Part shown: positions 6,798 through 59,966 of the stretch, piece by piece
Numbering within the stretch: the first letter of the stretch is position 1
How the letters are laid out: the number at the start of each line of letters is the position of its first letter
Notes under the pieces: generated by a model
The model's database searches: none
What the model saw: only the letters and a program-made list of their open reading frames with translations
What the model was told of the DNA's origin: nothing
Source of the DNA: Ectocarpus siliculosus
Taxonomy: Eukaryota > Sar > Phaeophyceae > Ectocarpales > Ectocarpaceae
Length of the DNA: 64,000 bases
Assembly (NCBI GenBank): GCA_000310025.1
Contig: FN648707.1
Coordinates: 615,137 to 679,136 of the forward strand
Direction: 5' to 3'
Position numbers and translations under genes: made by a program

Positions 6798-9700
6798 ATG
6801 TGGTGAGTGCCCGTGTCTCGCGTGGGGCGTCGTCGTCAGGCTTGAAAGATTGCCCCTCTCCCTCGCGAGCGGGACCTGCGTATGGTATGCATACAGAATG
6901 ATGCACACAAGAGGCGACAGAAGAAGCTGGGATATATCGTCTAACGTACATAAGCACCGCTGCCGTGTTCGTGGCCAGTGGCCGCCACCAAGGCCCCAGG
7001 CAAAAGTGTTTCGTGGTTAAGGGCTGGTGGGGTCGGTGTGTCGGGTCGGTGTGTGTTGTTCACAATCGGGGTTGAACATGTGCTGTACTGCTGTACTTCG
7101 TACAAGTTTCAAGAACATCATCCGGTCGGAATTTTTTTCCAGTCACAAGGCTCTTGGACGAACAGCCGAACAGAACAACAGAGTTTGGGCGTGCGGTGAC
7201 GGCGGCGGCGACTCTCCTCGCCTGTCTGTGCTTCCACCACGGGCGAGACACGAACCCGTTCAGATAGATATGTAGATACTATAATACACAGTGGCCGTCA
7301 GCAAGGGGAGGGATGCGCCACTCCGTGTGATAGAAGTTACTGATGACTCGCGGCTGCCGATTTCACACGTGCCGTTTCGCTACAGGCAGGCAGATGTTCG
7401 TAGCGACACAATCCAATGCCGTTGCCATTATTTACCGTTATGCACTTGACCACTTGACCCACAGCCGGAACACAAGCTTGTGCATGACCGCTTGCGTCCT
7501 CCATGACTTCCCTTCTGCCGCTGATGAGTTGGTGTATACTCTTGTTTGGATTTTGACGTTGATCGCAGGAAGCCGGGCCAGGTGGTTGAATCGCACAGGC
7601 GTCGGGCGGTGGTGGTTTGGACGGTGTCGGTGGTCGCCATCTTGTCATGTGAGCGCATCGACACAACTCGAGATGGTCTAAACCACACAAGACTGTTGGA
7701 CGGCAGTCGATCGATCGCCGAGCATAGCGCGTCGAGAGTACCAGCCCTCGCGGGATGATATTAAGAGATATGCTGTAGACTACTGTACCACAGCGCAAGA
7801 AAGAAATACTGGGCTGGAAATACTTCCATGGAGATCTCCGGCCAGTCTATTGTACATTGTACAGTACCCGGAGATCTCTGTCGAAAGGAACCACCAGTAA
7901 ATCCATGAACCTGTTATGTATGGTAAGATGCATCAACTATCCGGATGCGGTGCCCCTGCCTCCTCGCGTCCTCACACATCTGATCTGGCTGGGTAGTGTT
8001 GTCGTCAATGGCACGCCAATGGGTGGCGGCACCAGCCGATGACAGCAGTGGTTGGTTCCCGGGCAGTGAGCACGTGAGCTGAGCACGGAACCATCGTTGT
8101 TGATTGCTGAAATGTTCTTCGTGCAGCCGCAATCAACGTTTCGACGTTGGACAACGATGACATCTATCTATTGCTCAACAATTGTTTTTTTCTTGGGGAT
8201 ATCTGTATTTGTGCAGCCTATGCATACGTTTTCGAACCAACTTGTACACGTAATACGACGCCTTGCCTATCAGAGCCTGGAATATTCACAGTCCAGGCCA
8301 CGTTCGCTACAACCACGTTGCTACCGTACATATAATAAGGGCCGACGTCGACGTCAACCTGATCTGGCTACATTGTACCGGGGTACCTTTCGCAACACGC
8401 GACAAGCGACAACTAAGCAACCAAGCCGCAGGCCACGAGACAAAGCACCTTACTGCTGTACAGTAGTGTGCCTTTCTTTCGATCCCGACGAAAAGCGGTA
8501 GGGGGTTATGTACAGTATGTACAACCTCACTTGAGGAGTATCCCAGCAGCATGTCCTTTTGGTGTTCATCGCCCCACGAGACCTACCTTCGGTTTTGTGA
8601 TGCCGATGCCATAGCATCATCTTTCCTTTTGTACGTAGCTCACTCTGTCAGTACAAACTTGTAGTCTTCGACCTTTTACCGTACATTAGTGTTGATACCT
8701 TTGGTTTGCGTTTTTTTCAGCGTTCGTTCGTTTCACACGCAGCTGTTCACAACACCAACATTTGTTTTTTGGCCCCTCTCCTTTCAAAACTCAACCCGAA
8801 CACACTTGCCATCGTCTTGCAAACTACGAGCGCAGCGACGACCGCCGATATTGCGATCGTCCGCGGATCGCCCTTATATGCCATTTCCTACAGCAATGCG
8901 ACGACGAGTTTTGCAACAAGCGGAAGAATAATGTACAAGCTGATCCGTTGACCAATGCATGAAGATGGAAGACTGATGACAACATTTTCCCGTGAAGCTT
9001 CTGATCTCCTGCCAGTCGGTCTGTGAGCTGAGGAAAACTGCCCGCACGTGCTAAGACAGAAGATAGAAATATAGGGGGGGGAGTACCTGGTCTTAAACAT
9101 ATGGTACGAAGCTATGTGCGCGAATCCCCACAAAGTATTGAAGTAATATATCTGAAAATCTTCGTTCGTTCTTGATCGCTGAAAAAACAATCTGTTCTGG
9201 GTAACTCACCTCTCATTCAATTACAGGCACACAAGATGAGCCAAACACCAAAATAGCTGCTGCAGGATAGCCCCGACATGCTTGTGCTCGCACAACAATC
9301 TGACAGGTGTACTGTACAGTAGTACCGCAGTGGGGGATGCATCTGCCATTTTTTCCTGAGAATGAGTATGCCTGCTTTGCGTCCGTTTTGAACCGAAGGT
9401 GCTGGAGGCAGTCGGAGGAGGCGACGGCGATTTATACGAGGAGTGCGCTCCTCCTCCCCAATAACAGTCTATCCTGCACTCACTCGTTCTTCTGTTGCTT
9501 CCAAGTGTGTTGCTTCAGCAACAAGAATATACCGAGAAGCGCGTGTGTAATAGGTACACAAGACTATTGCCGGGAAGGGGCTTTTGAGACACTCGCGCGC
9601 GGAGGGGTGGTGGGTGTGTCTATGTACACGCCCCGCCTCTCTCGTCGCTTCCACCGATATGGTTCGTAGCAAACAGCAGTAGCTGTCTCACACCCTCCCG

Positions 9701-12700
9701 TCTATCTCGATCTCCCTGGCATATCATTCGCCGTGGGATGCTGCATGACATGCAGGCTTGATGCAAAATACTGAGGGAAAATGCGGTGCCACCTTGATGA
9801 GACTTCCGGCGAAGAGATGGAAGAGTGAATATAGAATGTATTTAAAGAAAAAATGGTACCCTTGCGGGCCGTATTGTCGTATGAAGTCGTGAAACCGTCG
9901 CCGTTCACCAACAGTCGTTGCCGCATTCTCTCTGGCTCGTTGTCTACGCTGCACCTCATACCACCTGCCAATGAAATTCTTGGAGAATCGCCGTTGTGAA
10001 GGAGGCATGCCATGCCTGAAAATGAAAATGTCGTTAACCGCATAGACTAAGCACTGCACCAGAGGAGGCCAGACAATCGCAGCAGCAGTGATGTTGACAC
10101 CACTTTGGGTTTGTGGTGGAACCGTGATCGTCTCGCGCTCACGGCTATTTATTTGGACAAACCTGAGAAGGGGCGATATGGGATGGTGGAGTGGTGAGAT
10201 TGTTGATGTACATCAGCCAGCAGGTGACGGCGTCCATCCACAGTAGCTCGCAGCCACGTGTGAAGAATGAACAGTTTGCCTGGTACTGAAGTGTGAGGGT
10301 CGTGGGTGTAATGGTCGTATGAGTCAAACAGGGATAAACGAATCTAGGAAGGAATGCTCCAACACCACTTTGCAAGCATTCGGCCGTCCGATACTAGCAT
10401 CTGACCAACAAGCGCGAGCAAAGCTTGCACATTATGGTACACGGGGAAAGCTCCCAGCATCTGCGTGATTTCACTCGCCATACTGAAAAATTCAGCGATT
10501 GAGTAAACGAAAAATCAATTTTGACCTACAACGAATGGCCAGAAACATAGAAAAAAACAAAATCAAACATGTGCACGTTATTTGCACTCCTGCTCTTTAG
10601 CATAATCTACTCTAAGGAAATGTCACATGTGACGTCTGTGGCCATTTACCTCTGTCTCCATTTCAATATTCTGTCTCGATCAATACACTTGCCGGTCCAC
10701 TATTCCCTCACTCCTGTTGCCTATCGTCTACGGGAGTGAATGATCGTATCGTCTTCAACTCGATGTCTGGCCGCTCCGCCTATCCCAAACGTCATTCCTT
10801 GCCCGTTATTCTTGAAAGGTAATATATGCACGGTATACATTAGCTGGGTGTCCGACTCTCGCTTTCGGCCTACCGTAGCGTCAGGCGACCAAGGCATTTG
10901 CGGGTTCGTGCTCGTTCTGACCTACAGGGTCGATACTACATAACAACATGTTGTTTGACCTACGAATTGCCAACGGTGGCGGTCGCACGAAGCGCTCAAT
11001 TCACTTCCAATATGTCGATGATGCGGCGTCCGCCCGATCCTGTACATGATCCAATCAAGATTCACTATTCAAAGGTGTACATGTAAAGTCAATAACAAAC
11101 GAAAGAGCCAACATATCAATCTGGTGTATGAAATTTATGCGTGTTGTTCATCGACAGCCCGGCGTGCACTCAATGTTGGCCTTTGTCTTGGAATACCGTA
11201 GTTCAGTTTGGAGCCGTGGCGCAAAGCGCCGAAACCCATGAAGTTTATTCCTCGAAATATGATGTTCTTCCATTCCCAGGAAAATATCGTTAGAGCACCG
11301 ATTTCGCTCGCGAACGCCACCGGGGGAAATCATCCATGCTCCCCAGGGGTTTTACGCAAATACGTACGACTATTGTACCGTACCACTACTGCCACTCCTA
11401 TTTTAGTACAGTTTCTCGATGGAATCGCATCACACCATGCGACCGCTTCGAATTAGTCTGTTTTTGCGTTTGTCTTCGCAGATGCCGGCTGGCTGCTTTA
11501 CAAAGCAGGGGAGAAGGCGAAAACACCCGACACGTCTTTCTTATTGACGGTGAGGCTGGTGTCAAAATCTTGCAACCCTGGATTGACTTCCATGTCGTAA
11601 GACCAATCGCCTTCCTGACGTGTATAGTTACACAGGCGCGCCGCTTTATGCTACCGCTGTTCCAGCAACGTTGTCAGATCTTGTTGCCAGTAAGCTTAGC
11701 TTTCTCGCGAGGGGTCGATGCCGGGAATCAATTGGGTGTTCTTACGACGAAGGGTTGATGCCGCTTGATACCGCTCGCGCTCTCTTGAAAAAAAGAATGT
11801 ACTTCGAAGTAGGTGGTAGTTCAAGATGGCGCGCATAGTATATCCGACGAGACAAAGTACTCTAAACTCGAGTGTTTCGAGAAATCGAAGCATCACACTG
11901 CTGAGTCCCTAAGGCTCGTGCACGGTGGCCGACGCTTGCCCGCTGACGGCAAAGGTCACGTCAAGCGCGACTGGCCCAATAGTCTATTGACGGAACACTT
12001 CCTGCACCCCGTCGAATTTTCAGAACGAGGTATACAAGTACCCCGACCTCTGGATTTGCCCGTACGTGAACTACGGCTGCGACGCCTGGGAACTCGAGGA
12101 GGAGTGCGTGGCGTCTGCGTGGATGACCGAAGTAGGCGAACCGGACGCAGTTTTTTATCCCCGAGTCAAATTGGACCAGCTCCACCAAGTAACGACCGAG
12201 GAGCGAAAAATCAATGCTATTCCTGATTTGACCAATTTCGACAGCGAGGGGAACGAGCAAGAAAACGTGAGCCTCGAATCCTCCCTTGTCTCCTGAATCA
12301 TGTTGTACTTCTTGGTCATTTTCGGGGCGACGTTTTCCCATGAAGACTTGCGTTGCTGCCTTGGAATGTACGGTGGTGTTGTCTTTGCCCTGTTAACATG
12401 AAGTATCGGTTTACCCAAACCGAGGTAGAGGGTGCAGGTGGGTGATAAGCCTCATTTCTTGTCCAAAAACGCACCCTGTGCCGATTACGCAGTAGCTCTC
12501 CCCACCGCAGCAAGTGTGTCGGTCACCTCGACAGCTGTGGCAGCAACATCGTTCAGTGTTAGCCTCCTTGTTGCCGACAGGGCCATCGCGTCTGTCACCC
12601 GTCTTCCGAGACGATGTTCGTACGTCGATGCATTTTCTTCGTCGACGAACACATGCAGATCGGGTCCGTACCGTACGAGAGGCTGCCCGCGCTACCGCGC

Positions 12701-15700
12701 CGAAACATGTTGTGGTAGGGCACAATATAGCCGCCGTTTCGTCCTCAATTGTTGGGTTCACGGTACTGTAGTACAAGGAATACAGGCTCGAACTTTGAGA
12801 CCTGGTGAGTCTTCGACCGTATGCCTCCCTGGGAGCGTAGCATCGCCGTTCGCGAAAAAATAGATTTTCCAATCGATTCGTGCCGAAACTATGTACATTA
12901 CCTAGGGCTGGCCATTCTCCGCTGTACGATACAGCCCACAGAAGCAAGTTTCAAGGAGTCATCGTGCATGCAGCATTGCCCATCCACCACGTACCAAACG
13001 TGGGTCAAAACCGCGAGACGCCTGCGTGTCTGAGCATCTAATTTTCTCGGCCGTACGCGAATCTTCCCCGGCTTTTCCCCGTCCTACCGTGTCGTTGTGT
13101 GATTCGTAGGGGAGAGGCCACTGCGTAGTTTTCGAGACCTCGGCTATATCTGACTTCCTTGGACGAGAGCGGGACCCCCATGAGTACCTGGATTACGTCC
13201 ATTTAGATGTGAGTCACGTGGACCGCCGAAGGACGACACTTAGAGCCACGAAACGCTAGTTCATCGTGTTGTGTACATGCGGTGCTTCGTATATTGTGTC
13301 GAGGTATCAGGTTTTGCCCGCCGTGGGCCCACCGCTATACCTCTCAGTCACAGTACGCCCACGACTCGGTGGACCTCTTTCTTTCCTTTGGGATCCACAC
13401 TTTTTTGAAACGTGAACACCCTCCACGTGATCGAAGCGAGATGGCGGTCCCGACGTGCGTTGCGGTTTCCGACACCAACGTATCGATTTAAACATTTGTC
13501 TTGAAACCTAAAACCAGCGTTTGGGTTCCACATCGAGGGGTTGCACCACCCCGTAACAACTGTCTGCTGGGGCGAAAATAGCACCGGCCGACGGTGGGGG
13601 GACTGACAGTCCCCTCGATAGCCTCAACAGCTCACACGCACTGGGCGTATGGGGCGAGGTGTGTCCCGGGCATGCATTGAAGCAAAACGTCGCCCGGGTA
13701 TTCTACCTGTAGGACTGGTCGCGAACTGCTCTCTCAGGCAACATGAGTTGGAAGTTGTTATCGGAGCCACCGTACCGCTATCACGGCTTTGTCACCCCGA
13801 CAAACGCATGTGTTTCGCTGATGAACAGATGTACTGGTACCCCGGAGGTAAATTTGGAAACTCCACGACGTGCGTCAACGAAGGGGTGGAGTGGGCGGAC
13901 CACAGGTGAACACACGTCGTTTTGTTTGTTGTTGGTGGTGGTGGTGTTTTCCCCCAACATTGGACTTCATATCAATCTGGTACCAATACCCTTGTTCTGT
14001 GGCGGGGGCTCGCCCTTAACAATCCTGATCATGGGGGGTGTATTCGTCTTCCTCTTCGTGTACAGGGAGATGAACCTCAAGCATCTCCATCCCTCACGGT
14101 GCGTTCGGATAGCCTGACAGATCAACATATTCAAAATAAACGCCTCTGTACTTCACGCATTTTTCGCCCCCTATCTTGCGGCAGGGAGTGGGTCTATGGC
14201 TTCATGAGCGACCCCGAGGACCCCACAGCGATTTCAACAGGATTTCCGTTGTCCTACAGCTGCATCACGAATACCTCCAACACCCACATCTTCAACACGC
14301 TCGTGAGCAACAATTCGTCAAAATGTTGTCCGGGGACGAGAAGATCTTGCTGTTTGGTGACGTGGGGGAAGTTTCAGCTTGAACCACGGTTAGCCACGAC
14401 TTTCGTCCCCACCTTTCATTCAACCTACGTAGGAGGCCATCACACCGGGCTAACAAATAACCCCCTTGTTGTATGAACATGCCTTCACCATCACCATTGA
14501 AAGGCAAAATCAACTTCCCACATAAAGCATTTCGAACACGTTGGATTATTTCAAGGTGTGGCTTTAGTGTTGTCCTTCTGATTACCGGGCAACGGCCTAG
14601 TGTTTCCAATATCATCATATTTTGTCTTACCGTTCTGTGCTTGCGTTCGTGCTTCACGTGCTTGTGCTGCATGCATTCGTGTCAGGGCGTTGGACTCACG
14701 AACCAGAACAAGTTCATGTCGGATGACATCTCATCCTACAAAGCGCTATTTACGAATTTTGGGGTTCACAAGAATACGGTAAGTTGTCGCTGTCGCTGTC
14801 GCTGTCTCTGTCTCTGTCGCTGTCGCTGTCGGTGTGTTGCTATCCCGGCACATCTCAGTCGTACGCAATCGTGCTTCAAAAATGCAGGTAAACCCAAACA
14901 TCACAATGCCCTACGCCCATGTGTCTCTGGAGATGAAGCAACAGTTCGACTCCTGGGAGATCATCACAGAGTCCAACCCGTACGAGTTCGCCGAGATGTT
15001 TGGAAATATTGGCGGCTTTTGGGGTGAGTGAGACCTATGGGACCCCTGTCCAATCGAGGGGGCTTGTTTGTTCTGAGGAATGCGTGTTTCCTAACCTCAG
15101 AGATGAAAGACCGTTGTCTTACACACCACCACATTGCTGATCATTTTTCAGGACTGATCTCCACGAGGCTGCCATACTTCATCGTCGAAGTCACGCCGCA
15201 TTTCTCGCTCGTAAACGCTACACGAGAACTGACACTCGTCGACGAACAATCACACATGACCTTGTGTGCTGCCGCAATAGTTTTGTGTCCTACTTAATTC
15301 CACAGCACCCACAGCAACGTACTACTTCAACGTCATCGCTACTGCACCTTGAAAACACATCCATCAACACCGCAATAGCGTCATGCCATTCCCTCTCTTG
15401 CCGCTATGGATGATGGCAGCCTCCTAACATAGTGACATATCTGTTACAGCGTTCTTTTAACGCTTAGACTATGCCATGCAAAAATTTCACAATTGAACCC
15501 GTCAGACTTTGCAGGTCGACACGATACCCCGACTGCAACCTAGCGCGAACGCCTTGGTCCCACCTGACGCAACTCTGCCTTACGAACTGCGGAGCGTATA
15601 TTTTTCAACGGCTCGCAGGCATTGTCATCGGGCTCGAATCCGACCCATTCCACTATTGACTTGAATGTTACCATCCTCATTAGGGTTTTCACCAATTACC

Positions 15701-18700
15701 ACAATCGCAGGCATGGTGATTTTGCCCGGTGTATCGCGCCCGTTGAAAAACATGCTAACTCGGAAGTTACTTATTACTCGCTGTTCGACTCAAACTTAAC
15801 CGAGGTAACGCACATCGTGCACTTCATATTTAACAATGTTTTGCACTCCGTATTCATGCTTAATCTTCGCGCCGACTCCATTCCCTGGGCCGGTCCACGT
15901 CATCATGAGCTTTGACGTGGGTTTACGCACCCACGCCCTTAGTGCGAAAACACCAACCGCAAGGTTAGGTAGCTCGCCCCGACTAGCATGCCTCCTTTGT
16001 TTATCAGGATTCTGCTTGACCATGTCCTGCACCTGTTTATGCATTTCCTGTTGAACAGCCACTACGTCAATGACCTTTCGCTTACCCCCCTCGTCATTTA
16101 GCACATCCATCTGCCGGTCTTCTCCAGAAGCAGACGTTATCGTGGAAAACTCAATTCGCAGTGCGCTACTAAACAGCACATGGTAAGGCGTACTCGCGTA
16201 ACGTTGACGAGAAGCGGTATTCAAAAACCACTGTATGGCCGAGACCAAATCAACCCACGCGCGCAAGTCTCTCCTTTCTTCTTGTAAAACCGTCTTCAAA
16301 CCAAGGACTAATTCCTTCATCATCCGTTCGAAGGTTCCCCCCTGGCATGTTGACTACCACATGCATCACCTCAAAGCATGTTCGAGGTTTTTTTATATTG
16401 AGATTTGTCAAGTGAGATGCGATATCGCTGACCCACACTTGCGCAACACCCAGAGCCTTGCACCAACCCAGGAAAATTAGGTCTGTCAGAGCGGCCGTGC
16501 GTCCCTCCGTTGGTTCTAACCACACGAAGTTGCTAAGATAGCTGCTAAGATAATCCATCACCACAAAAAAGTGTTCGGAATCCAACTCCCTCTTCCAAGC
16601 CTTCGACTTTCAACGCCCCACTCTGGCCAAAATACAGATAGTCTCCCTGAATTTGTTCGCCCGGCCTGGTACCTTGCGTTTTTCCAAGCAGCCTTGGAAC
16701 CGTTTCATCCGCCGTCCAATCTACACAATGCAGGCACGGTTTGACAAATGATTTCACCTGACTCTCCATGCGAAACCAACAGCAGTATAGTTTTGTAATC
16801 GATGCAAAATTGCCGCCTTGCCCCGATGTCCCGCCCCTCGCATATGAGCGCAAACCATGAGCCGTTGTGGTAGTTCTATGGCACATTCACGAACACATAT
16901 AGCTTCGCGCCCCTGTACCTTGACATGAAAGATTCCTTCGCTGTCCTCCACGGCCTTTCTACAAGCCGCCATGAAACTATCTGCTCCATACGCCCTACTT
17001 CTGACTTGTTTGCGTGCACCCTGGCCAACTCGATGTACGACCTCATTCCATGGCTTCGCGTCGTCAGGTTTGCTCGGCGCAAACACAGCCACTGCCCTAA
17101 CCTTCATCGCAGGAACATTCGACCCACCTCGATAGACAGTAGTCCCCGCGGCAATTTCTCTCGCCAAAGATGTGCCTGATGGTGTACTGGACCTCCGCCG
17201 TCACCACCTTTCACTGCTCCAGACGCCGGGCAGCAGTCTCAGGCAACGACCACACGCACGCATCAGGATTGAAAATGTGTGCGAGAGTGCGATGGTCGGC
17301 CAATGAACTCACATCGGCCCTCATTAGGTTGGCCAGTCTCTTGCACGTGCCGATGGCGAAATGATCTTTGGCAACAGTCGCCCAGTTCATCTGAGAACCT
17401 TCGAACGTACCGCTGAGGAAGGCGACCGGCCCGTGGGCGGCGAGACTGCCGTCAATGCACACCCCCAATTTCATCAGGGTTGCTCCTCTGAGCAGGATCG
17501 TGTTGTCCTCGCCAGGCATGACAGAAAAACGGCATGTTTGCTCCAACGCCACTGGACGGTAGTTTCAACCGCATCAGGCATGTCTTTTCGGTTGTAGACA
17601 CCAAATTACCGTCTGCCATCCGGACATGATGCGCACCGTCCGTGGGCTGCGTGACGAGAACTCGAGGAAAATCAAACCTGTAGCTTCCGCGCAACGCGTT
17701 CCGACATAGACGTCGGATCAGACCCGGAGCTCTGCACCGCACGCACCGGGCACGCCGTACGCCCGGCTGCCCCCGGCGCAGACAAACCACCCAAACACCG
17801 CGTGCCAACGCGATCCACGTGGACTCCTTCGGCGTGCATGCTCACGACGCCATCCATGGTCTTGGACCGCCACGCTAGAACCGTCATAACGTCAGGCGAC
17901 GCAGTAGTCCCCTGAGCGGGAGCAGGCGGCGGGGGAAGTAGCGCTGCCACCTCATCACGATTCTGCTACTCCGAAGAGGAGGTCCTACCCTGGACGATTA
18001 AACCCAGCCGCTGACCCGCTCGTTGCTGCTGACGTCGCGCCGGTTACTTTCCGGACCCGCCGCCGCAGCGGCAGGTTTGCCCCCAGACTTGTCTGGCGAG
18101 GCCTTATTGCAATCCCGGGCGAAATGGTCTGGCTTGTCGCAACATCCAGCAACTCCCAGAAGAGACTGACTAGCCACCTTGCCACCACCGGGACGTTGGC
18201 CCGGTTGCTTGCCGGGCGCGCCCTCACGAGCCGCGTGTTCAGACTTCTAGCCCACAGCACGAGCTTCGCCACGGGCTTTTACACCCCGCGCCGACCATAT
18301 CTATTTTCTTCCTGTCAGTAGTGGCCTCCGTTTCCCATCACCGTCAACACACACGCCCAGGATCAGTGTTCCAGTTGCCTTGAAGCTCGAGAGGGCTCTC
18401 GGCGTTCGCCTTACACTCTGGGCGAGAAATCCCACTCACCAGAGCCTTGCTAGCGACGTGCGTCGACTCCTGACTCAAACCGTCGTCTTTGTCGCGGTAC
18501 AGCCGAGCCACGATCGCGCTACCCGCCAGAGTGTATCCCAACGAGCTACGGACAGCATACAGGTGTTCGAGTACCGTGGCGCCAGGATTCACGGTAGCTG
18601 TGCGGGTCCCGCCCACTTTCGCCACAACCGGTGCATCCAAAGCGTCACCCGAAAGTTCGATATTTGCGGTCTTCGCTCCAGCAGCAACTCTGACACTGAC

Positions 18701-20006
18701 GTAGGCCGCCGCTGCCCCACCCGACGTTCGTTATCACGCGCGTGTACTCCACGTTCCGAAGCAGAAGCCTCTTCGATGCAGCAGAGAACAGCGTCTTCCC
18801 ATACTCGGGGCGGCTTCGGGGTGGAGCCGAGAACCACCTCGCTCACACTCACCCGAGTAGGGCTCGTGTCGTCATCCGTAGACGACTTGGCCTCGGGCGT
18901 GACACTGCCGCCGCGTCCACCTTTGCCTCGCCCTTCCATCTCCTGACCACTCCTCGTGACCAGGCAATTTGCGTTGTCGTTGCGACTCACCTCGCCACAA
19001 CTGTAGCAGACTCTCGCACAGACTTTGACGCGAAGTACGTACTTCCAGCCTATGCTGTAAAACTTGAAACCTCCGGCCCACCTCCGAAGGACCGCCAGAT
19101 GAACTATGTATACATAATGTGGAACCCTCGTCCAAACAAGGGTGTGTGTTTGTTCACTGAGGGGCCCTTTGGTTGGTTATCGTACCTCAGGGATATAAGA
19201 TCGTTGGTCAACATACCACCCAGAGCTCTTCATTTACCTGGACGGACCTCAACGAGGCAGCCGTATGACATCGTCGAAGGCTAGCCGTGTTTCTCTCTCC
19301 AATGCATCATTGGAAAACACACGACCCACAGCTATTAATTTGCCAGTACTGACCTCAAGGAGGCATCCGTATGACATCGTCGAAGTCAAGCCGCGGTTCT
19401 CTTCCTACACGTTACACGTGAACCTACACTTTTCGAGACCGCTCATTTACGACTTTGAAAACTGCCGCAACTCTACCCTACATTACCACAAGCAAACAAA
19501 CTGACATCTAAATTGATGTCGCATACTCTTCATCAAGCGTGGTTGCATCCCCGCCTTTGTGCTTGAACTGGGAGAACAGACCTTGTACTCTAGCGACTCG
19601 CGAGAACTCTTGGTAATGAATCACGTGGCGTGTACCGACCGTTGTAGCTCATAGATTTGTTCAACTTTGTCTCGGTTGCCACAAACCCCTTCCGCTCGCT
19701 CCCACGCCCACAGATCTTCTACTCATACTGTGGCCGTTATGCTTTGTCGCGGCCACTCAACAAGATCCCCACCTCAAACCTCGAAGCTTCACGAAGTCGG
19801 TCATCAGGGGGGCCGAACGCGCGGCGGGTGTTACCAAAGTGGTCGCGCGTGTGGCACCGATCAGACACTCCAGCTCAAAGAGCCATGCTTCCGCGGTAGA
19901 TGGCTTCGAAGGCCAAGAAGTAGTACCCGCGTGGGATCGACAACCCGCGCAACGGCAACAGCCCCCCCAGTCAGCCACCAACTGGCAGGAAGCGCGCCGC
20001 GTTTGA
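6798..20006 (+). CDS. Copy A: two-membrane-segment protein, function unknown, 11 exons
   Basis: The predicted product is 480 residues. Exons are 6798-6802 (ATG TG), 7569-7648, 11482-11549, 12024-12266, 13110-13208, 13631-13905, 14066-14098, 14185-14302, 14686-14778, 14888-15023 and 19714-20006 (stop TGA). All have AG/GT borders, all phases fit, and the sum is 1443 bases. Residues 1-14 are basic (HRRR), and about 15-34 form a membrane segment (AVVVWTVSVVAILSY). The next region has YPDLWIC at about 57-63, GCD and EEEC cysteines, and sequons NCS, NST, NTS and NIT. FGNIGGFW precedes a second membrane segment (LLLILWPLCFVAA, about 385-398) and a basic tail of about 80 residues. Intron 10 holds a 4.5-kb LTR fossil and intron 2 about 3.3 kb of extra DNA. 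The family is unrecognised. Exon 7 (14066-14098) has the least certain 5' border. Confidence 0.75.
7649..11481 (+). other. Enlarged intron 2 of copy A
   Basis: This intron is 3.8 kb, against 551 bases in B, 464 in C and 484 in D. Similarity to the other copies is visible at the 5' end (to about 7760) and resumes at about 11130, so roughly 3.3 kb in between is extra. Open frames of up to about 130 codons occur (for example 8097-8501) but none shows a recognisable domain. The segment contains a 12-bp inverted repeat around GGAGATCTCCGG (7830-7879) and a fragment at 9702-10060 that resembles 55790-56090. Confidence 0.6.
9702..10060 (-). repeat. Dispersed fragment related to 55790-56090
   Basis: Read on the minus strand, this block contains GGCATGCCTCC followed by a CGATTCTCCAA stretch and a peptide frame with MPPSQRRFS and later RQYGPQG. 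The plus strand at 55890-56090 has the same landmarks in the same order, encoding MPPSQRRFS and RQYLPQ. Both lie inside introns of the gene family, in different introns, so this is probably a mobile or dispersed sequence. No domain is recognised. Confidence 0.45.
14786..14832 (+). repeat. TGTCGC/TGTCTC hexamer microsatellite
   Basis: About eight units of TGTCGC with some TGTCTC variants lie directly after the exon-9 donor (GTAAGT) inside intron 9 of copy A. A short remnant of the same motif is present in the equivalent intron of copy B near 29110. Confidence 0.85.
15038..15480 (-). repeat. Left LTR (3' LTR) of the intron-10 element
   Basis: Landmarks shared with 19118-19530 include GGGACCCCTGTCC / GGAACCCTCGTCC near the outer start, CTTGTTTGTTC / TGTGTTTGTTC, and TTCATCGTCGAAGTCACGCC / GACATCGTCGAAGTCAAGCC. 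The match is patchy. The inner boundary is approximate. Confidence 0.6.
19118..19530 (-). repeat. Right LTR (5' LTR) of the intron-10 element
   Basis: Starts with TGTGGAACCCTCGTCC and shares several blocks with the left repeat. It contains an internal partial duplication: the GACCTCAA(C/G)GAGGCA and CGTATGACATCGTCGAAG block occurs twice, near 19248 and 19352. The outer boundary is approximate. No clean target duplication could be fixed. Confidence 0.6.
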
Positions 20007-21989: not shown

Positions 21990-22105
21990 AGCGCCCCATG
22001 GGCACTTTGTTGCCCATGGTAGACAGTTGGGCATGCCCGTGGGTAGCCCGTGTGCGGCCCATGGGCGGCCCATGGGCAACCCATGGGAAGCCCATGGGCG
22101 GCCAA
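21990..22105. repeat. CCCATGGG palindrome array 1
   Basis: At least five exact copies of the self-complementary octamer CCCATGGG, plus near copies, lie within about 115 bases. They are separated by short GC spacers, for example GCGG, GCAA and GAAGC-type linkers. The block lies in DNA that is absent from the equivalent 3' flank of copy C. Confidence 0.85.
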
Positions 22106-22274
22106 CGAGAGCCCTTCAACCGGAACCAGCGTACTCCTAAGCAATAGATAATCTGCTTCGGAACGGGCATTGTAGCGGCTAATAACCCTTACGCCATCCT
22201 TAACCCTAACCCCAAGCCCACACGATACGTGCGAGGTTGGCGCTGGTGGCTAAGTTCTAGGTTGATATGGTGGG

Positions 22275-36430: not shown

Positions 36431-36461
36431 CGGGGTGATGTACATTATCCTTATTCGTGCC

Positions 36462-47594: not shown

Positions 47595-50430
47595 CCTCGT
47601 CTCCATAGGGAGGCGAATTTTTCACGTTGGGGCCGAACACACCCCACGACACGTGAAGGGACACGCGTCAGGACATCGAAAGCAGGGGAGCCATGAACGT
47701 GGAGGCGAATAGCCCTTGCCGGATAGGGCAAAACGCGTTGTCCCTGGGTGGTGGTACCAGGAGTAGCAGAGAAGGGAAGCATATAAGGCTTGGCGGTTGT
47801 GCTCGAAATTGTAAGTTGGCGACGTTTTCAACAACTCCGTGCCAGAGTGGCATTAGCGCTGATCGCACATCAGTGACGTGTTCTTCACGTATCAACGATG
47901 CCTTAACAGCTGCTTCTTGGCCGATTCGTCCTGGTGTCCTCCGTACTTTGTGTTTCCACCATAAACGACTTGGGCGTCTTTTGCGCTAGTGTTCCTTCGT
48001 GTGATTTTCTGTTTGTTTGCGTTGGTACGACAGATCCCACAGCCACCTCTAGAGCGTTTTTGCTTTTCTTGTTGCATAGCTCTGTTTCGTTGATGCACGT
48101 GGGATGTTGACGGTACCTCCCTTCCAGCCTACTTGGCTGACACGAAACGACTTTGTTCTTCTGATGGAAAACAGACGACGAACAACATCTACCCTCTATT
48201 GCCACCAGGGGATGGCCTTGCGAACAGAATACCGTTTCCGCTGGCTTTAAAAGTCGACTTGTTGGAGCAGGGGAGACGTACCAATCGGTGGTGCATATAT
48301 TATGGGTACGTATGGATTCAACGTATCAAAGCGGGGGCGCCGAATGATGCTGGCTGCAGACCTGCAGACGTGGTAAAGGGTACGGTATCGGATCCGCAAG
48401 GACAGGTTTTGGAAGGCGGGATGTGCGCAGTGGACCTCAAGTTTGAAGTTTGGAATTAGGTCCAACGTTTTGATTACATGAGGGTATCCTTCGTACTCGG
48501 CCATGGTGACGAGTGTTCGCGAAGTGATAAACAGAAACTTGATAGGAGTTGAGCAGAGTTTACTGAGTAATTTAATCTTGTGTATGCTCAAGCGATAGAT
48601 GTTGTATGGTGATGGAATTCGGGACCTACGATCGAAACGAGAAGGAGACCGATTAAAGAATACTCTGTCTGGTGTTGGCTTCAATGGTCGAACAAGAGGA
48701 TCGACGCGTTACACGTCATTGGGTATGGATTCAGAGGCTGGATGACTTGGGACTTAGTCTCGGTGTCACCCTTGTGCTCCTACCGGAACTTGTTCTTCTG
48801 AGTTCTTCGAGAGGAAAGCGAGCCTGAGAAACGAGCGAACGTTCGTTGGTTCTCGTATTTTGCTATCATGGAGACTACTGTTTGTCATATTTGTTTGATG
48901 GCCCTCATATCGCTCCTATGTAGTATGCTTATGGTTGAGTGTGCTTGGATTCCTTTGTGAAGTAGTACATTGTCCTCGATCTCGTTGAGGTGATGTTTTG
49001 CGACACACAGCAAGGGTACTTGTGAGGCGCCATTGGTGTCTCAAAGCGTGCGGGATGACGAAGTGGGGGGTTGGTCGTTTTCTCGGCGATCAGCCAGCCT
49101 GCCCTTCCACCTAAACTACTCTTCGGGCGAAAATCTGGCGTGACGGCGGTGTAGGGAATGGGTAGACCGAAAGAGGAATTGAATTGGCTATCTTGTAGGG
49201 AGCCAAGGCAAATCTATTTTGTGGCCGGCTGGGGGTGGAACGTACTCCGTTGCGTGCGTGCGGTGGACGCAAGAGCGCCCTTGGCGATCGAAGGGCATAG
49301 GCGCACGATGGAAACATGGACCTGCAATCCATGTTTACTCTCGACACGGACGACGCTAGTATCTGAACAAGTCACTCAATATTATTCGCGACTGGCGATC
49401 CAGCATCCATTGGAAATCAACGACAACTCTTACTACAGCCGATCTCGGTCGACATATGAGCCACCATTCATGGCATTGGGCATGTCGGTGGTATGGTACC
49501 GGGAGCCAACATCTCTCGGGCCCACCGCCCGCCACAACCTTTCAAAGGCACGTCTATTTTCAATTGGCAGGGGGGGGCAGGGTGGCGGTCCCAAGAGTAT
49601 AACCGAATGGCCAGTGGGTGATGAGAAAGGCGACCGCGACGCGACTTAAATGTTGTTTTGGAATTCGGTACACAGCTGGGCGAGCTTTGTCTGTCTGCAT
49701 CGGGCAAGCACGCCCCGTGCTACGTTGTTTGTGTGTACATCGAAAGGCCGGCATCCTGTGTTGCTGTCTACAGCTTCTGAAGAAGTCGGCTTCAAGTCAA
49801 ATTACCCAATCTCGCTTCTTGCCAACAACACTACCACCGTTTACAAACGAATGCAGTCGACTCGTCCGTGTTCCCACCCACCCCAGTTCTCTTGTTGAGA
49901 ATATCGCAGACATCGAAGACACACCGCCGATAGGTAGGGTGTTTGTCCATTGATGTCTCCTCGAGTTGGCAGGTGAGAATACGACAAGCTCTTGCTGTAT
50001 GGATGTTTCTATCACTAGCCTCTCGAGTTGAAAAATCTTTGGGGGCTCGTGCCTACCAAGGCATGCTCTACGCCCCTAGGAGCCGTATATGGTATATGCG
50101 CACCCGTCACGCGAGAAGTCGGAGAAGTCTGCAGTTCTTCGGCGCAAAATCAAAGTATTGTGGTTTAGGACATTTCTGTACTCAGGCGAACCAAGAACCA
50201 GCTACCATACCAAGCATTATGGAGAGAAGCGCGCGGGGGCTCGAATATCCCCCCACCCGCCTACAATACCGGGGAGTTATCCTGCCCAATCAGCACGGAA
50301 AATGAGGTTTCTTCGCCTTCCGAGTGACGGTATGGGAAGTTCCAGGTTAGGAAGATTTTGGGCTACGGGTGTTGCACCCATTGGTTGGAAGTACAGCACT
50401 GATCACACATTGTGTATGTAGACTTGGGTC
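47595..50430. other. 3' flank of unit C
   Basis: Similar to the 3' flanks of B and D over most of its length. No plus-strand gene is supported. Minus-strand frames near 47890-47950 (RIGQEAAVKASLIREE) and 48247-48684 (STPIKFLF, EYEGYP) match frames in B and D. The block at 49490-49620 is the common TGGTACCGGGAGCCAACATC region. The end at about 50430 is where similarity to unit A also ceases. Confidence 0.55.
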
Positions 50431-51650: not shown

Positions 51651-53602
51651 CATTCGGCTAAAGTCTTGGGACCGCCACCCTGCCCCCCCTGACATTTGAA
51701 AATAGATGTGCCTTTGAAAGGTTGTGTGCCCGAGAGATGTTAGCTCCCCGTGCCATACCTCCGACATGCCCAATGCCATGGATGGTGGCTCATATGTCGA
51801 CCGAGATCGGCTTTAGCGTTGTCGTTGATCTCCAATGGATGCTAAATTGCCAGTCGCGAACAATATTGAGTGACTTGTTCAGATACTAGCGTCGTCCGTG
51901 TCGACAGAAAACATGAATTACAGGTCCATGTTTTCGTCGTGCGCCTACGCCCCTCGATTGCCAAGGGCGCTCTTGCGTCCACTGCAAGTAGGCAACGGAG
52001 CACGTTCACCGCCACTCGGCCACTAGGGTGTGTCTTGGCTCCCTACAGGATAGCCAAGTCTTCTTCGGTTTACCCATTCCCTACACCGCCGTCGCGCCAG
52101 AGTTTTGCCCGAACAGTAGTTTAGGCCTAAGCGCAGGCTAGCTAATCGCCGAGAAAACGACCAGCCCCCAACTCCGTCATCCCGCACGCTTTCAGACACC
52201 AATGGCGCCTCACAATACTCTTGTTGGGTATCGCGAAACATCACCTCAGATCAGGACGAGATCAAGGACTACTACTACACAAAGGAATCCAAGCAAACTC
52301 AACCACAAGCGTACTGGTAAACCATACAGAATCGATGTGAGGGCCATCAATCGAACATCATGACAGCGGTCTCCATGACGGCGAATGTGCGAACCAACGA
52401 ACGTTCGCTTGTTTCTTAGGCTCGCTTTCCTCCCGAGGAACTCAAAATATACATCCCGCAGGTATATACACAAGAATAACACCAAGACCAAGACCAAGTC
52501 CCAAGTCGTCCAGCCTCTGAACCCATACCCAATGCCGTATCCTTTTGTTCGACCATTGAAACCAACACCACGCGATCCTTGTAGAATCGATGTCCTTTTC
52601 GTTTCGATCGTAGGTCCCGAATTCCATCACCACACAAATATGTATTGCTTGAGAATACACAAGATTAAATTACTCAGTATACTCTGCTCAACTCCTATCG
52701 AATTTATGTTTGCAACCCGCGAACACTCGTCACCATGGCCGAGTGCGAAGGATACTCTGATACATACTTACAACGTTGGACCTAATTCCAAATTCCAAAC
52801 TTGAGGTCCACTGCGACATCCCACCTTCCAAACCCTGCACTTGCGGGCCCGATACCGTACCCTCTACCCAGCATCATTCACCTCCCCCGTTTCGATAGAT
52901 TGAATCTACATACACATAATATACACACCACCGTGTGGCATGCCCCCCCTGCTCCAACAAGTCGACTTTCAAAGCCAGCGGAAACGCCATTCTCTTCGCA
53001 AGGCGATCCCCAGGTGGCAAAAGTGTGTAGGTGTTGTTTGTGGTTTGTATTGCATCAGACGAACAAAGTCATTTCGTGTCAGCCAGGCAGGAAGGAAGGA
53101 AGGTATGGTCATCCCACGTGCATCAACAACACGGAGCTACGCAACAAGAAATGAAAATACGCTCTAGGTGGCTGTGGGATCTATCGTACCAACGCAAACT
53201 AACAGAAAATCACACGAGAAGGAATATCAACGCAAAAGACGCCCAAACCGTTTATGGTGGAAACACAAAGTACGGAGTACACCAGAACGAATCGGCCAAG
53301 AAGCAGCTGTTAAGGCATCGTTGATACGTGAAGAACGCGCCATGAGTCTGAAATCAGCGCTATTTCCATTCTGACACAGGGCTATTGAAACACAACCCAA
53401 CTTACAACTTCGAGCACAACCGTCAAGCTTGCCTCCCTTTGCCGCTACTCTTGAAACCACCGGCCAGGGACAACGAATTTTGCCCTATCCGGCAAGGGCT
53501 GTTCGCCTCCACGTTCATGGCTTCCCCGCTTTCGATGTCCTGACGCGTATCCCTTCACGTTTCGTGAGGTGCTTTCGGCCCCAAGGTTTGAAAACTTTGC
53601 CC
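51651..53602. other. 3' flank of unit D (inverted)
   Basis: Inverted counterpart of 47595-49620. Similarity to unit C stops at about 51650, within the block GGGACCGCCACCCTGCCCCCC, about 800 bases earlier than the end of unit C. Plus-strand frames here (for example 53168-53374, peptide RIGQEAAVKASLIREE) are antisense to copy D and match those in B and C. Confidence 0.55.
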
Positions 53603-54357
53603 TCACATGGGGACGAGGTCAAGAGTGGCCCGCTTCCTACCAGTTGGTGGTGACAGGGCGGCCTGTTGTCGTTGTGTCGGTTTCCGCTCCCACGCGGGCA
53701 CTTCTTCTTGGTCTTCGAAGCCATCTGCTACAGACGCAGCGTTCACCGTCCTGGAGCGTCTGATGGGCGCCGCACGCGCGATCACTTTGGTAACACCCGC
53801 CGCGCGTTCGGCTCCCCTCACGACTGACTTCTTGAAGGTCCGAGGTTTGAGGTGGGGATCTTGTTGAGTGGTCGCGACGAAGCATAGCGGCCACAGTATG
53901 AGAAGAAGATCTGTCGGGGTGGGAGCCAGCGGAAAGGGTGGGCGGCGGTCGAGACAACCCTGGCAACAGGTTCAATCGTTCATGAAACATGAGCTGCCGT
54001 TACCCGCTACGCGATGCGTCACAAAAGAATCTTCGCGAGTCGCTAGAGCGGAAGGTCTGTTCTCCTAGGCACACGGGCGGGGATGCCACCACTACAGGGC
54101 GAAGAATGTTCGACAATTCCGCGACTGTACTACATGTACCGGTTCGTTTTGTCTCACTCACCCCAAAACCCGCCAATATTTCCAAACATCTCGGCGAACT
54201 CGTACGGGTTGGACTCTGTGATGATCTCCCAAGAGTCAGCCTGCTGCTTCATCTCCAGAGACAGATACGCATATGGCATTGTGATGTTTGGGTTCACCTG
54301 CATTGTGGAAACACGATTGCGGACGACTGAGAAGTGCCGGAGGTTTTGCGAGGCAAC

Positions 54358-54394
<37 letters not shown>

Positions 54395-57300
54395 CGACAG
54401 TGACGGAGACAACATTCGAAAGTGCTGCAGCTGCAGGTCAGACGTACCACATTCTTGTGATGCCCAAAATTCGTAAACAGCGCCTTGTACGACGATTGGT
54501 CATCCTCCATTAACTTGTTCTGGTTGGTGAGACCAACGCCCTGACACACCGACAACACAAGGAGCGAAGCACGTACACAAACACAGAATGGTGAGCCGAA
54601 ATGTGCCGACTTGTTGGGAAAATGGCTTCTCTAGCACACACTTGACCATTGCCGGCTAGTCAGAAGGACAAAACTAACGTCACAGCTCAAAATGATCGAA
54701 TGTGTTGTTTCATTCTTCATGAGCAACTACTTTACATTTTCAATTGAGATGGCAAAGGCGCGTATGGAGAAACAAAAATTGTGGGTTCTTTGTTGGTTCC
54801 GTGCGATTGTCCCCTACGTAGGGTGAGTGTAATGTAGCGACGTAAGTCGGGACTGCCCACGTTCAAGCTGGAAATTTCTCCAACATCGCCAAACATCAAC
54901 ATCTACTCCCCTCCGGACACCGGTCTGAGGAATTCTTGCTCACGAGCGTATTGAAGATGTGGGAGTTGGAGATATTCGTGATGCAGCTGTAGGACAACGG
55001 AAATCCTGTTGAAATCGCTGTGGGATCCTCGGGGTCGCTCAGGAAGCCATAAACCCACTCCCTGCCGCAGAACGGGGGACGGAAAATTCGTGGTGAAGAA
55101 GTGTACAGAGGCGGTTACGACTGAACATGTTGATCTGCTAGACCCTGCTACCGCACCGTGAGGGAGACAACTCCTTGAGGTATCTGCAGGTGAACGAAGA
55201 CATCCATCCGGTGATCAGTTCATGTAAAGGGCAAACCCGCCACACAAAATGGTAATTGTACCAGATATAGCCTGCCGTAGATCGGAAATTCCAATGTCGG
55301 GGACAGATTTCTCTGCTCTGTTAATAAGCAGATGTCCAACAACGAGCATCTATTGATTATGGGTATGCCATTACCATTGTTTTGACCAAATTTGGCTATT
55401 TATTGTGTTTTTTCGCCCTATATCATCCAATACGACCTTTTGCCGGATGAAAATACATACATGCTGAGAGCATTGCCCGTAAAGCATAAAGCGCATGTTT
55501 TCGTCGAGTTTATTGGCGAGAGGGCGGTGGGGCACGTCCGGAAGACGAAGAAAAATTGACAGCAACCTTCTTCCGCATTCCCTGGTTTTTTGTGTATCAC
55601 ATCTATTTTGCCTCATACTGCACACGTGCGATTTCACATGCTACTCACACACTCCGCTACAAGTAGGGTTGGGGATGGGGTGCCACCTTCTGTTGCGGGT
55701 TGCGTGCCTTGGCCTGCTGCCAATTGAACATCAACAATCAACCAACAACCACTATTATGGCGCCGCATAGACTAAGGGCTTCTCGCGAAACGATCGTATG
55801 AACATTGTTCCACCGCAAACCGCAACTCCCCCGCTACTCTATCATGAAATGAAAACAGTTGCACCGCGTAGCTTGTGGTGTACCTTTCGGCATGCCTCCC
55901 TCCCAAAGACGATTCTCCAACAGTTCAAATCGACAGACGCAAAGAACGAGTTACACCGTACAGTAGATGACGCGCAGGAGGAATGCCACTACGATCGCTC
56001 GGCGAAGCGCGACGGCTTTCGACGGTCATGCGACAATACCTCCCACAGGTTTTCTTTCAAAGCGATCTACCTATATGCCAAGACGGTAGTGTGACCCCCG
56101 GTGGCCGTCAAACCCCAGGGGCGGGCGGCCGCCATACCCTAGTCCCAGCAGCAACGTATCTTCACCTGTGGTCCGCCCACTCTACTCCGTCAGCGACGCA
56201 AGTCGTAGAGTTTCCAAATATGCCCCCGGGGTACCAGTACATCTGTTCAGCGAAAGGCATAAACGGTTGTCGGGGTGACACTACCGGGACAGCGGTACGA
56301 ACGTTGGCTCCGAGAACGTTTGCCAACCCATGTGGCCTGAGAGATCCGTTGGCGGCGATCATATCTATCTACGTGTGCCCGAGCGATATATTGCTTCCTG
56401 CATCAGCAAGTGAATAACCTTCAGCCCTTTGCGCTCATGCGTGTGAGCTGTTGAGACTATCGGGAGAATGTCACATTTCCCCCACGGCAATTTCACGCCC
56501 CTCGGTCGGTGCGTTTTTCACCCCAGCAGAACGTCGTGTGTCACTGTAATGTTTGGGGTGGTGTAACTCCTCTATGTGTGTCGAACCCAACGTTTGGTTC
56601 TAGACTTGGAGATGCGTTCTTCAAATCGTCCGGAACCGCCACGCACTCGGGGTACGGCACATCGCTTCGATCTTGTGGCGGGCATAGTCTATGCGACACG
56701 TTTCAAGAATATCAACAACAATATGCGTTCGAAAAGATCAGAGGGAGAGGCTCACAGAGACGTGCACGTTGGCGTACTGCTACTGAAAGAGGTCTTGCTG
56801 TGGGCGAGCGGCGGGCGCTACTGAACACCTCAACGAAATATAGGAAACATGACATGTACACCAGTCAGTGTTTCGTGGACCACAAGTGTCGTCGTACGGC
56901 GGTCCAAGTAGCTCACATCCAAATGGATGTAGTCCAGGTACTCGTGGGGGTCCCGTTCTTGTCCAACGAAGGCAGTCGCAGCCGACGTCCTGAAAATCAC
57001 GCACTGGCCTCTCCCCTGTTGTACAAACCGCAACAACGACGCCATCGGATCCGCAAGAACAGTACATTTAAGAGTCGCATGCAGCCAAGAGAGTTAGACA
57101 GATGCACAGACCGCTCGCAAGATGGTAGAAAGGCAATGTTACATGCATCATCGCTCCTGGAAGCTTGCCTCTTTGCGCTACCGTATGGCGTACGGCGGAG
57201 AGCGGCTAGCACTAGGCAGTTCGGCAAGGTTAGATTGAATGCGCTTTTGTTGTTCTTCGCGGATGGCGATGCTACGCTCACACGGGCCAGGCACACAGGA

Positions 57301-59966
57301 GCACCCGAAAGGGTTTGCAACAAAGCGGACGTATCACGGTCGAGAATAACCAGGTTTCAACGTTGCGAGCTTGAATTATGAGGACAGACTGCAGTCCTCG
57401 GGTTTTTGTGCGACTGCCGTGAACCTAGCAATTGAGATCGAACCGGTGGCCAGTATCCCCCAAAAAATTATTTCGGCACGGTAGTGCGGGTAGCGTCTCG
57501 TACACCGTCCGATCTACATGTGCGTTGTCGACGAAGAAACTGCAGCTACGGAGACCGACTGGTTTCGAACTCGATTGCTCCGTCGGCAACAAGTAGGGCG
57601 CTAACACTGAACCATGTTGTTCCGAAAGCTGTTGACGAGGCATCTTCTACGCTGACAATCTTCCTGCCGTGAAGATATTGGGTATGGAATCGAGGCACAG
57701 GGTGCATCGTTCGACATAGCATGAAGCATGTCACCCACCTGTACGCCCCACCTGGGTGTGACTTCATGGCTATTTCATGTGCACGGGGCACGGACAACAC
57801 CACCGAAAATTCCAAGGTAACACCGCAAGTCTTCCATGTGAAAACACGCCCCGAATAGCAACAAAAAATATAACTGGTTCAGGAAGGAAAGGATATTTCG
57901 AGGCTCACGTCCTCCACGTAGTTTCCCTCGCTGTCATAATCGGTGTTTTCGGGGATAGCTTCGATTTGTAGTTCCTCGGTCGTTGTTTCTTGTAGCTGGT
58001 CCAATTTGACTCTCGGGTAGAAAACCGCGTCCGGTTCGCCCCCTTCGGTCATCCACGCAGAATCCACGCACTCCTCCTCGAGTTCCCACTCGTCGCAGCC
58101 GTAGTTATTATACAGGCAAATCCAGAGGTCGGGGTTCTTGTATACCTCATTCTGAAAAATACGACGGGGTATACAGAAAATAAACCAACAACAAACCATT
58201 GGGTCAGTTGCTGTGTGTGATTTGTGCGCGTCAGCGAGCGAGCGTCGGACACCATGCACAAGCCTGGGGAGTTGGCGGCATGAGGTTTGATCTGACGATA
58301 CAACGGTAAATTTAGTCCATAGGTTAGATCAATTTTTCTCCTCGGAGCCACTATGCGCGCCCTCAACGATCCAGCACCTACATCAATTTTTCCCTCCTAC
58401 CAAAGAATGCGTGAGCTGTCCCTTCGTCTGCGGAACCAATCCTAACTTGATTCCCAGTATCCATGTTTCGCAGGTACAGTAGCATTACAGGCAACAAGAT
58501 CTGACAACGTTGTGGAAGTAACGGTAGTAAATAAGCGTCGTCTCTGTATAGGCACGGCACAAGATATAGGCGATTGCTTCCGACATGAAAGCCAGCCCAC
58601 GTTGCAAGATAGGGACGCCCGCCTCACCGTCAATACGAACGACGTGTCGGGTGACTTCGCCTTTTCCGCTGCTTTGTAGAAAAGCCAGCCGGAATCTGCT
58701 AAGACACGGACAAAAACGAACCCATTCGAATGGTGGCGTGCAGCGGTTCCATCAAGAAGCTGTCCTATAGAAATAGTATATAGCGGTACAGTTGTATGGT
58801 GTCGGGAACAATAGGTTTACAATACCCAATAATCACTTCTTTACCCGGGATGGGATTCGTGTGCGAAATCCCTGCTCTGTTGACTTTGTCCTGGGGAAGG
58901 AACAATATAACGTATCGAAGAATGGACCTTCAAGGGTTATAAAACTTTGCGCCACCGCCCAAATTGGGCGATTCCAAGGCACAAGTAAATATAGAGTGAA
59001 AGCATGCATAATGTAGACTGATGATAATGCTCAATAATCCTCCCACGAAAGGGTTTTTACTCTCCACGTACAATGCTCGGCGACCGATCGACTGTCTACC
59101 TGCCTGGTTTTGTTCCATCCATTGTTGCACGGTTTGCGGTTTCATGGTCTAGACTATCGAGTTGTGTCGATGGGCTCACATGCGATGATAGCGACCACCG
59201 ACACCGTCCAAACCACCACCGCCCGACGCCTGTGCGACTCAAGCACCTCGCTTGGCTTCCTGCATTCAGTGTAAAAATCCAAACAGAAGTACACACCAAC
59301 TCATCAGTGGTGAAAGGGAAGTCATGCAGGATACACAAGCGGTGATGCGCCAGCTTGTCTCATTCCCGCCGGTAAAATGTGAAACGGCAAATATGGTTAC
59401 GGCCTCGACTTTGTCGCTGCGAACATCGGTCTGCAGCGAAACTACACGGTGAATTCGGCAGCCGCGATGTGCAACAGTAACTTCTAGAAATATATCACAC
59501 GGAGTGGCACGCCCCTCCCGCTACTTTAGTATCTGTCTTCTGACCTGGTTAATGGCTCGTGGGGGAAGCACAAGCCAGGCGGGGAGAGTCGCCGTCATAT
59601 TTTTTCTGTTCGGATGTGACTGGGTAATAACTCCGACCGGAAAATGTTCTTGAAACTACATGTACAGTCAACAGTACATGTACGACCCCGACGGTGAACA
59701 CATCACATACACACACCGACCCGACACACCGACCCCATCAAAGCCCTAACCATGAAGCACTTCTGCCTGGGGCCTTGGTGGCGACAACTGGCCACAAACG
59801 CATAGCGATGCCTACGTAGGTGAGACGACGTTCACCTTCTACTGTCGCCTCGTCGTGTTGCAAGCATGCTGTATGTATACCATACGCAGGCCCGCTGCTC
59901 ACGAGGGTACAGGAGCAACCTTGCAAGTCTGGCGACGCCCGCGCGAGACACGGGCACTCACCACAT
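53603..59966 (-). CDS. Copy D: two-membrane-segment protein, function unknown, 11 exons
   Basis: Exons on the minus strand: 59966-59962 (ATG TG), 59259-59180, 58695-58628, 58151-57909, 57015-56917, 56368-56166, 55183-55157, 55061-54944, 54540-54448, 54297-54162 and 53910-53603 (stop TGA). All borders are AG/GT, all phases agree, and the total is 1380 bases, for 459 residues. Layout as in A: basic start with HRRR, TM1 (AVVVWTVSVVAIIAY), YKNPDLWIC and GCD/EEEC cysteines, MYWYPGG and GNSTTC, the sequon-bearing CITNISNSHIFN, NPNITMPY, FGNIGGFW, and TM2 (LLLILWPLCFVA). Exon 6 starts later than in A, at a TAG acceptor, which shortens the protein. The tail is slightly longer and ends TLDLVPM. Closest relative in the window is C, in inverted orientation. 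Reading frame conserved and likely functional; role unknown. Confidence 0.75.
54356..54396 (-). repeat. AAC/GTT trinucleotide microsatellite
   Basis: About 12 CAA units in intron 9 of copy D (between the exons at 54540-54448 and 54297-54162). The same intron of C carries only short GTT-rich runs, and in A the position holds TGTCGC hexamers, so this intron repeatedly grows simple repeats. Confidence 0.9.
55190..56165 (-). other. Enlarged intron of copy D with inserted DNA
   Basis: Contains the roughly 600-base block shared with copy C (55240-55660) and, in addition, a fragment at 55790-56120 related to 9702-10060. The two insertions lie side by side in one intron. Neither shows a recognised domain or clear terminal repeats. 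Confidence 0.5.

Follow-up and report, generated by a model that had tools for sequence, protein, structure and literature searches.

A four-copy gene family in Ectocarpus siliculosus with a distant likeness to DEG/ENaC cation channels

Channels of the DEG/ENaC family, such as ASIC1 and ENaC beta and gamma (Pfam family PF00858, ASC), have two transmembrane helices (TM1 and TM2), a glycosylated ectodomain and basic residues before TM1. They are trimers that conduct cations, and their hallmarks include a His-Gly (HG) gating motif before TM1, a G-x-S selectivity filter in TM2 and a Cys-rich ectodomain with a palm/thumb/beta-ball fold, which in ASIC1 has 14 cysteines. Short members are also described, such as the centipede channels PDPNaC1 and BRTNaC1 (PDB 9jf7 and 8ymw, with chains of 421 and 431 residues). 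In the part of its description available to us, PDPNaC1 has neither the knuckle domain nor a canonical HG motif, and yet it conducts; it retains Gly-Ala-Ser, but mutation of this motif left selectivity unchanged, so that it is unlikely to be the filter of this channel (PMC12714832). Outside animals, homologues are reported from the heterokont Cafeteria roenbergensis and from Tunicaraptor, as far as the available text of the two sources goes (PMC10507113, PMC9822975). Among the matches listed for algal and stramenopile channels (mainly titles and abstract openings, with subscription journals mostly outside the scope), we recognised no description of a brown-algal DEG/ENaC protein. In this paper we looked at a window of 64,000 nucleotides (nt) of the brown alga E. 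siliculosus (assembly GCA_000310025.1, contig FN648707.1, positions 615,137 to 679,136, forward strand), which holds four copies of a spliced gene, here called A to D, whose products resemble these channels.

Comparison of the window with itself gives four related blocks, A, B and C on the forward strand and D on the reverse strand, reaching from the ATG of copy A at 6798 to the ATG of copy D at 59966, as a first-pass annotation made from the sequence alone had proposed. For the gene model, successive regions of the four copies were aligned in turn and the borders were placed where the copies agree. It has ten exons of 5, 80, 68, 243, 99, 77, 118, 93, 136 and 290–308 nt, and exons 2 to 9 are identical in length in all four copies. 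The internal borders have an AG acceptor and a GT donor, and the phase of any given border agrees between all copies (between A, B and D for exon 1); this part of the first-pass annotation holds for all borders found. Its eleven exons, its totals of 1443 (A) and 1380 (D) bases and its products of 480 and 459 residues were over-called: with the stop included, A and B each have 1212 coding nt and D has 1227, and the products have 403 (A), 403 (B) and 408 (D) residues, with 400 in C counted from exon 2.

Exons 2 to 9 are gap-free in all six pairwise comparisons, while the introns, pooled over pairs, contain 4–111 gaps each, mostly not multiples of three (counted without introns 2 and 9 of copy A, which are longer than 3 kb, and for intron 1 without copy C). 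Substitutions are in excess at third codon positions in all six pairs (P from 9e-9 to 3e-3, first 306 codons), the ratio of nonsynonymous to synonymous substitution rates (dN/dS) is 0.15–0.28 over the first 330 codons of every pair, and the spliced frame is free of internal stops in all four copies, against 5–15 stops in each of the other two frames. Because of these gap-free exons, the third-position excess, the low dN/dS and the open frames, the four copies are, judged from their sequences, a protein family under purifying selection.

Hydropathy analysis of the products shows peaks at about residues 16–34 (TM1) and 302–320 (TM2) in all four copies. Between them lies an acidic ectodomain of ~260 residues (net charge -26 to -33) with six conserved cysteines (63, 70, 79, 137, 180 and 217) and three conserved sequons (176, 220 and 265), and the two flanks, a short N-terminus and the tail, are basic in each copy. 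The two-helix layout, the middle with cysteines and sequons and the basic tail described in the first-pass annotation are hence present in 4/4 copies by hydropathy, sequon and charge counts; of its motifs, MYWYPGG and FGNIGGFW are there, and YPDLWIC occurs in A and B and is replaced by NPDLWIC in C and D. The longest invariant stretch of the protein is residues 282–319, which cover the segment before TM2 and TM2 itself. Two transmembrane helices, putatively cytosolic termini and a large extracellular loop that is predicted to be glycosylated fit the DEG/ENaC plan.

A Pfam scan with 24,736 models and E-values up to 10 listed PF00858 as the sole family for each of the four full-length copies, with 17.8 bits for A, 20.5 bits for B (E 0.00028, the best of the four) and 20.4 bits for a majority consensus of 361 residues. 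When the N-terminal 80–89 residues were scanned alone, ASC was again the best family in 4/4 copies, at a sub-threshold 13.9–15.6 bits, with residues 7/10 to 66/68 lying on profile positions 13/17 to 78 of 455. This region comprises TM1 and the segment after it, which ends in all four copies, at sub-threshold scores, in an FPxVTxC-like motif; as a P/C motif, the algal YPDLWICPY stands here beside the DEG/ENaC FPAVTLCNL. A 42-residue piece of B that starts before TM2 and extends into it, also scanned alone, falls on positions 406–441 of the 455 (11.0 bits, E 0.2). The DEG/ENaC-like segment here is YEFAEMFGNIGG; it shares the pattern YE-A---G-IGG with the channels, and its conserved GG is found both in this piece and in the register of the profile alignment described below. 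The N-terminal and C-terminal matches lie at opposite ends of the same profile, in the right order. None of 13 segment-wise shuffles of B, which preserved the composition of each topological segment (10 of them cut to 345 residues), matched ASC, and neither did the one reversed B. P2X and other two-helix channel families were listed for no full-length copy at E-values up to 10, a range in which the HMMER filters drop most matches above ~0.1. The first-pass annotation recognised no named family with this signature; this does not hold, since both ends match the PF00858 profile in order, below its cut-off, with weak agreement from a second method. An NCBIfam search of the family gave no lead.

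The second method was hhalign, run with the four-copy profile against one built from ASIC1 and the beta and gamma subunits of ENaC. Its top local alignment pairs residues 283–316 (SWEIITESNPYEFAEMFGNIGGFWDLLLILWPLC) with ASIC1 416–449 (score 26.8, P 0.014), which is, weakly, the same segment before TM2 as was picked by the Pfam piece scan. With C-terminal slices only, P was 2.6e-4 and the probability 42%, for a slice that was picked after the full alignment was known. We accept the kinship because these lines, each weak by itself, converge on a single profile and match its two ends in the right order, and we consider it probable, at roughly 0.66, that these clustered, intact, spliced genes encode distant DEG/ENaC-like cation channels. 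Formal membership is not claimed, because the scores stay below the profile cut-off and neither the filter motif nor the HG motif was found.

Several results weigh against this reading. Every PF00858 score obtained is below the curated gathering cut-off of 23.6 bits, and because the best of them is 20.5 bits the match is only suggestive and gives no formal assignment. Other, weaker families appear at E 0.085–0.16 in three of the four N-terminal pieces, which makes the ASC lead there modest; four other C-terminal pieces (90, 323, 266 and 60 residues) gave no ASC match, and the central 175 residues of the ectodomain matched no Pfam model. The full-profile hhalign probability is 3.1%, two of 300 segment-shuffled profiles reach 26.8 (the best, at 29.3, lies above the real score) and N-terminal slices alone give P 0.29. 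No DEG/ENaC chain turned up when the PDB was searched with the four-copy profile, with the first 80 residues of B or with its 90 C-terminal residues. One explanation of these results is that the family is an unrelated two-helix surface glycoprotein, in which the likeness of short segments next to the helices arose by chance or convergence; the sub-threshold scores, the unmatched central ectodomain, the lack of a PDB match, the low hhalign probability and the shuffled hhalign profiles all suit it. It does not easily explain why two distinct stretches should match one of 24,736 profiles, each at the correct end, why the shuffled and reversed controls of the Pfam scan were negative and why a second method finds the same C-terminal segment, and we regard it as improbable.

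The other points against it concern hallmarks of DEG/ENaC channels. The Gly-Ala-Ser of ASIC1 aligns in hhalign with I311 L312 W313, so that no G-x-S filter is present in TM2; the ASIC1 glycine four residues before it aligns with the invariant Asp307. No His-Gly was found before TM1 in any of the four copies, where the start rests on the 5-base exon 1, which was not found in C. The ectodomain, smaller than that of ASIC1 and ENaC, has six conserved cysteines against the 14 of ASIC1. The main alternative to a working channel is a DEG/ENaC-derived protein that does not conduct (a pseudo-channel, an auxiliary subunit or a surface receptor) and that kept the topology while losing the filter. The Ile-Leu-Trp with its bulky tryptophan, invariant in the four copies, and the short N-terminus without His-Gly would both be expected of such a protein. 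Yet the longest invariant stretch is exactly the segment before TM2 and TM2 itself, which suits a working pore. The losses of filter and HG motif also leave room for a channel, because PDPNaC1, by the available part of its description, conducts without the canonical HG motif and with a selectivity that is unaffected by the Gly-Ala-Ser mutation (PMC12714832). We find this alternative unlikely, though slightly less so than an unrelated glycoprotein. That the cluster consists of one functional gene and several pseudogenes is very improbable: exon 1 of copy C was not found, the tail of copy D is shifted in frame and exon-1-like words at 62429, 63184 and 63718 have no other exons in the window, but the frames are open in all four copies, the splice sites are kept and dN/dS is low in 6/6 pairs.

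If the genes do encode distant DEG/ENaC-like channels, their anatomy suggests that they should work like one. Both termini would be in the cytosol, three subunits, either from a single copy or from a mixture of A to D, would assemble with TM2 lining the pore, and a stimulus on the ectodomain would open the channel and let cations enter. With Ile-Leu-Trp at the position of the ASIC1 G-x-S, the channel would either be broadly selective or owe its selectivity to other residues, of which the invariant Asp307, close to the outer end of TM2, is one example. As a guess, the stimulus may come from the surrounding medium, as a shift in ions, osmolarity or pH, or from an extracellular ligand. We thus expect a trimer that conducts cations through an unusual pore, a picture in which trimer, gating and conduction are all predictions. 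A bolder idea, which we offer as tentative and rather doubtful, is that a seaweed lineage has an expanded cluster of filter-less DEG/ENaC relatives in which the invariant Ile-Leu-Trp and a ring of aspartates replace the G-x-S belt, so that the animal fold with a different pore chemistry senses the outside medium.

PDPNaC1 and BRTNaC1, which are similarly short, differ from the algal family in being animal proteins and in having no PDB sequence match to it at E-values up to 10. The Cafeteria roenbergensis homologues, set beside the algal family by description only, are also reported from a stramenopile, outside animals, but, in the available part of the report, are grouped with animal clade B channels (PMC10507113). 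A clustered family under selection in a multicellular brown alga would bear on the question of whether DEG/ENaC channels are ancient and often lost or were passed sideways, and it would offer a natural experiment on whether conduction requires the G-x-S belt. Relatives were looked for in a collection of viral contigs and in a collection of genome contigs, where 166 and 40 pattern matches respectively were obtained and none was confirmed. In the PDB searches the four-copy profile gave Rif2 only, as a weak match, and short rubredoxin matches around PDxWxCP (best E 0.031) were also set aside.

The features of the family, placed by the four-copy alignment (for exon 9 of copy A also by the Pfam piece scan), are as follows.

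6798–6802, + strand: copy A exon 1 (ATGTG), conserved with its donor in A, B and D
7569–7648, + strand: copy A exon 2 (basic N-terminus, start of TM1)
11482–11549, + strand: copy A exon 3 (end of TM1, segment after TM1)
12024–12266, + strand: copy A exon 4 (YPDLWIC, first part of the ectodomain)
13110–13208, + strand: copy A exon 5
13829–13905, + strand: copy A exon 6 (MYWYPGG, sequon N176)
14185–14302, + strand: copy A exon 7 (sequon N220)
14686–14778, + strand: copy A exon 8
14888–15023, + strand: copy A exon 9 (sequon N265, ASC-like segment before TM2, YEFAEMFGNIGGFW)
19714–20006, + strand: copy A exon 10 (TM2, basic tail, stop), after an intron of 4690 nt
24247–24251, + strand: copy B exon 1
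25017–25096, 25648–25715, 26211–26453, 27393–27491, 28090–28166, 28477–28594, 28984–29076, 29214–29349 and 29601–29893, + strand: copy B exons 2 to 10
42386–42465, 42930–42997, 43489–43731, 44605–44703, 45352–45428, 46218–46335, 46677–46769, 46922–47057 and 47305–47594, + strand: copy C exons 2 to 10 (exon 1 not found)
59962–59966, - strand: copy D exon 1
59259–59180, 58695–58628, 58151–57909, 57015–56917, 56242–56166, 55061–54944, 54540–54448, 54297–54162 and 53910–53603, - strand: copy D exons 2 to 10
63718–63722, + strand: exon-1-like word ATGTG|GTGAGT, possibly exon 1 of a further copy leaving the window (the 21-base exon 1 and donor word of A, with 0 mismatches at 63717; upstream sequence similar)

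Exon 1 is the weakest exon of the model, with only five coding bases (ATGTG, giving Met and two bases of Trp). It is conserved with its donor GTGAGT in A, B and D, the word recurs twice elsewhere with no more than one mismatch, and no match for copy C was found between 30000 and 42386 at up to 6 mismatches in 21. Words of the form ATGTG|GTGAGT lie, besides 63718, at 62429 (- strand) and 63184 (+ strand), with upstream sequence that is alike, and the one at 62429 agrees only over its first ~12 bases. Beside these three words no other exons were found within the window. The word at 63718 may be the start of another full copy past the right edge, and those at 62429 and 63184 may be truncated copies.

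Candidates for an additional exon were considered and rejected. To reach the earlier totals, a further AG/GT exon without stops, 231 nt long in A or 153 nt in D, would have to be added to the ten, which is impossible in the introns tested (all except introns 2 and 9 of A). One candidate, at 11636–11689 of copy A between exons 3 and 4, still shows similarity among the copies, but B and C have no GT donor there and in D it is off by a single base. Another segment, near 12650–12720 of A, is interrupted in B by an in-frame stop, and a 4-base gap sets A and B apart from C and D.

Copies C and D sit in an inverted duplication (46621–49609 and 51651–54595, 84% identity over 3 kb by self-comparison), which extends ~2 kb past the genes. 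A 197-bp stretch with exon 2 and its flanks (7482–7678 and 42299–42495) is 97% identical between copies A and C, while other A/C blocks are at 74–92%; the identity drops abruptly at both ends of this stretch, which is likely a recent gene conversion tract. The last intron of copy A (15024–19713) has 4690 nt, compared with ~250 nt in B, C and D, and contains RT_RNaseH-type remains at 17214–17564 on the - strand (Pfam E 1.9e-4, below the family cut-off); it was probably enlarged by insertion of a retroelement. Intron 2 of copy A is also enlarged, with 3833 nt against 464–551 in the others.

Across the window, tRNA and Rfam searches gave no lead. GC content is ~49–57% per 2 kb. FNIP repeats above the Pfam cut-off were found in two of the ten open reading frames scanned, at 38399–39517 on the - strand; according to the available part of one source, there are 121 FNIP proteins in the Saccharina genome and similar proteins in Ectocarpus, and otherwise such proteins occur in Dictyostelium and a few DNA viruses (PMC4421812). 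Taken with the GC content, these repeats by themselves would make a brown alga the likely source of the DNA. Two ~490-bp stretches that are 73% similar (31695–32182 and 32286–32773) lie on either side of a gap of 100 N, which may be an assembly join. A 1.2-kb repeat outside the gene copies occurs at 2790–3978 and 35211–36430 (81.5% identity), with RT_RNaseH-like remains, below the cut-off, at 1658–2377 near its first occurrence. Short tandem arrays of 10–11 bp units are found at 22028–22360 and 36499–36529.

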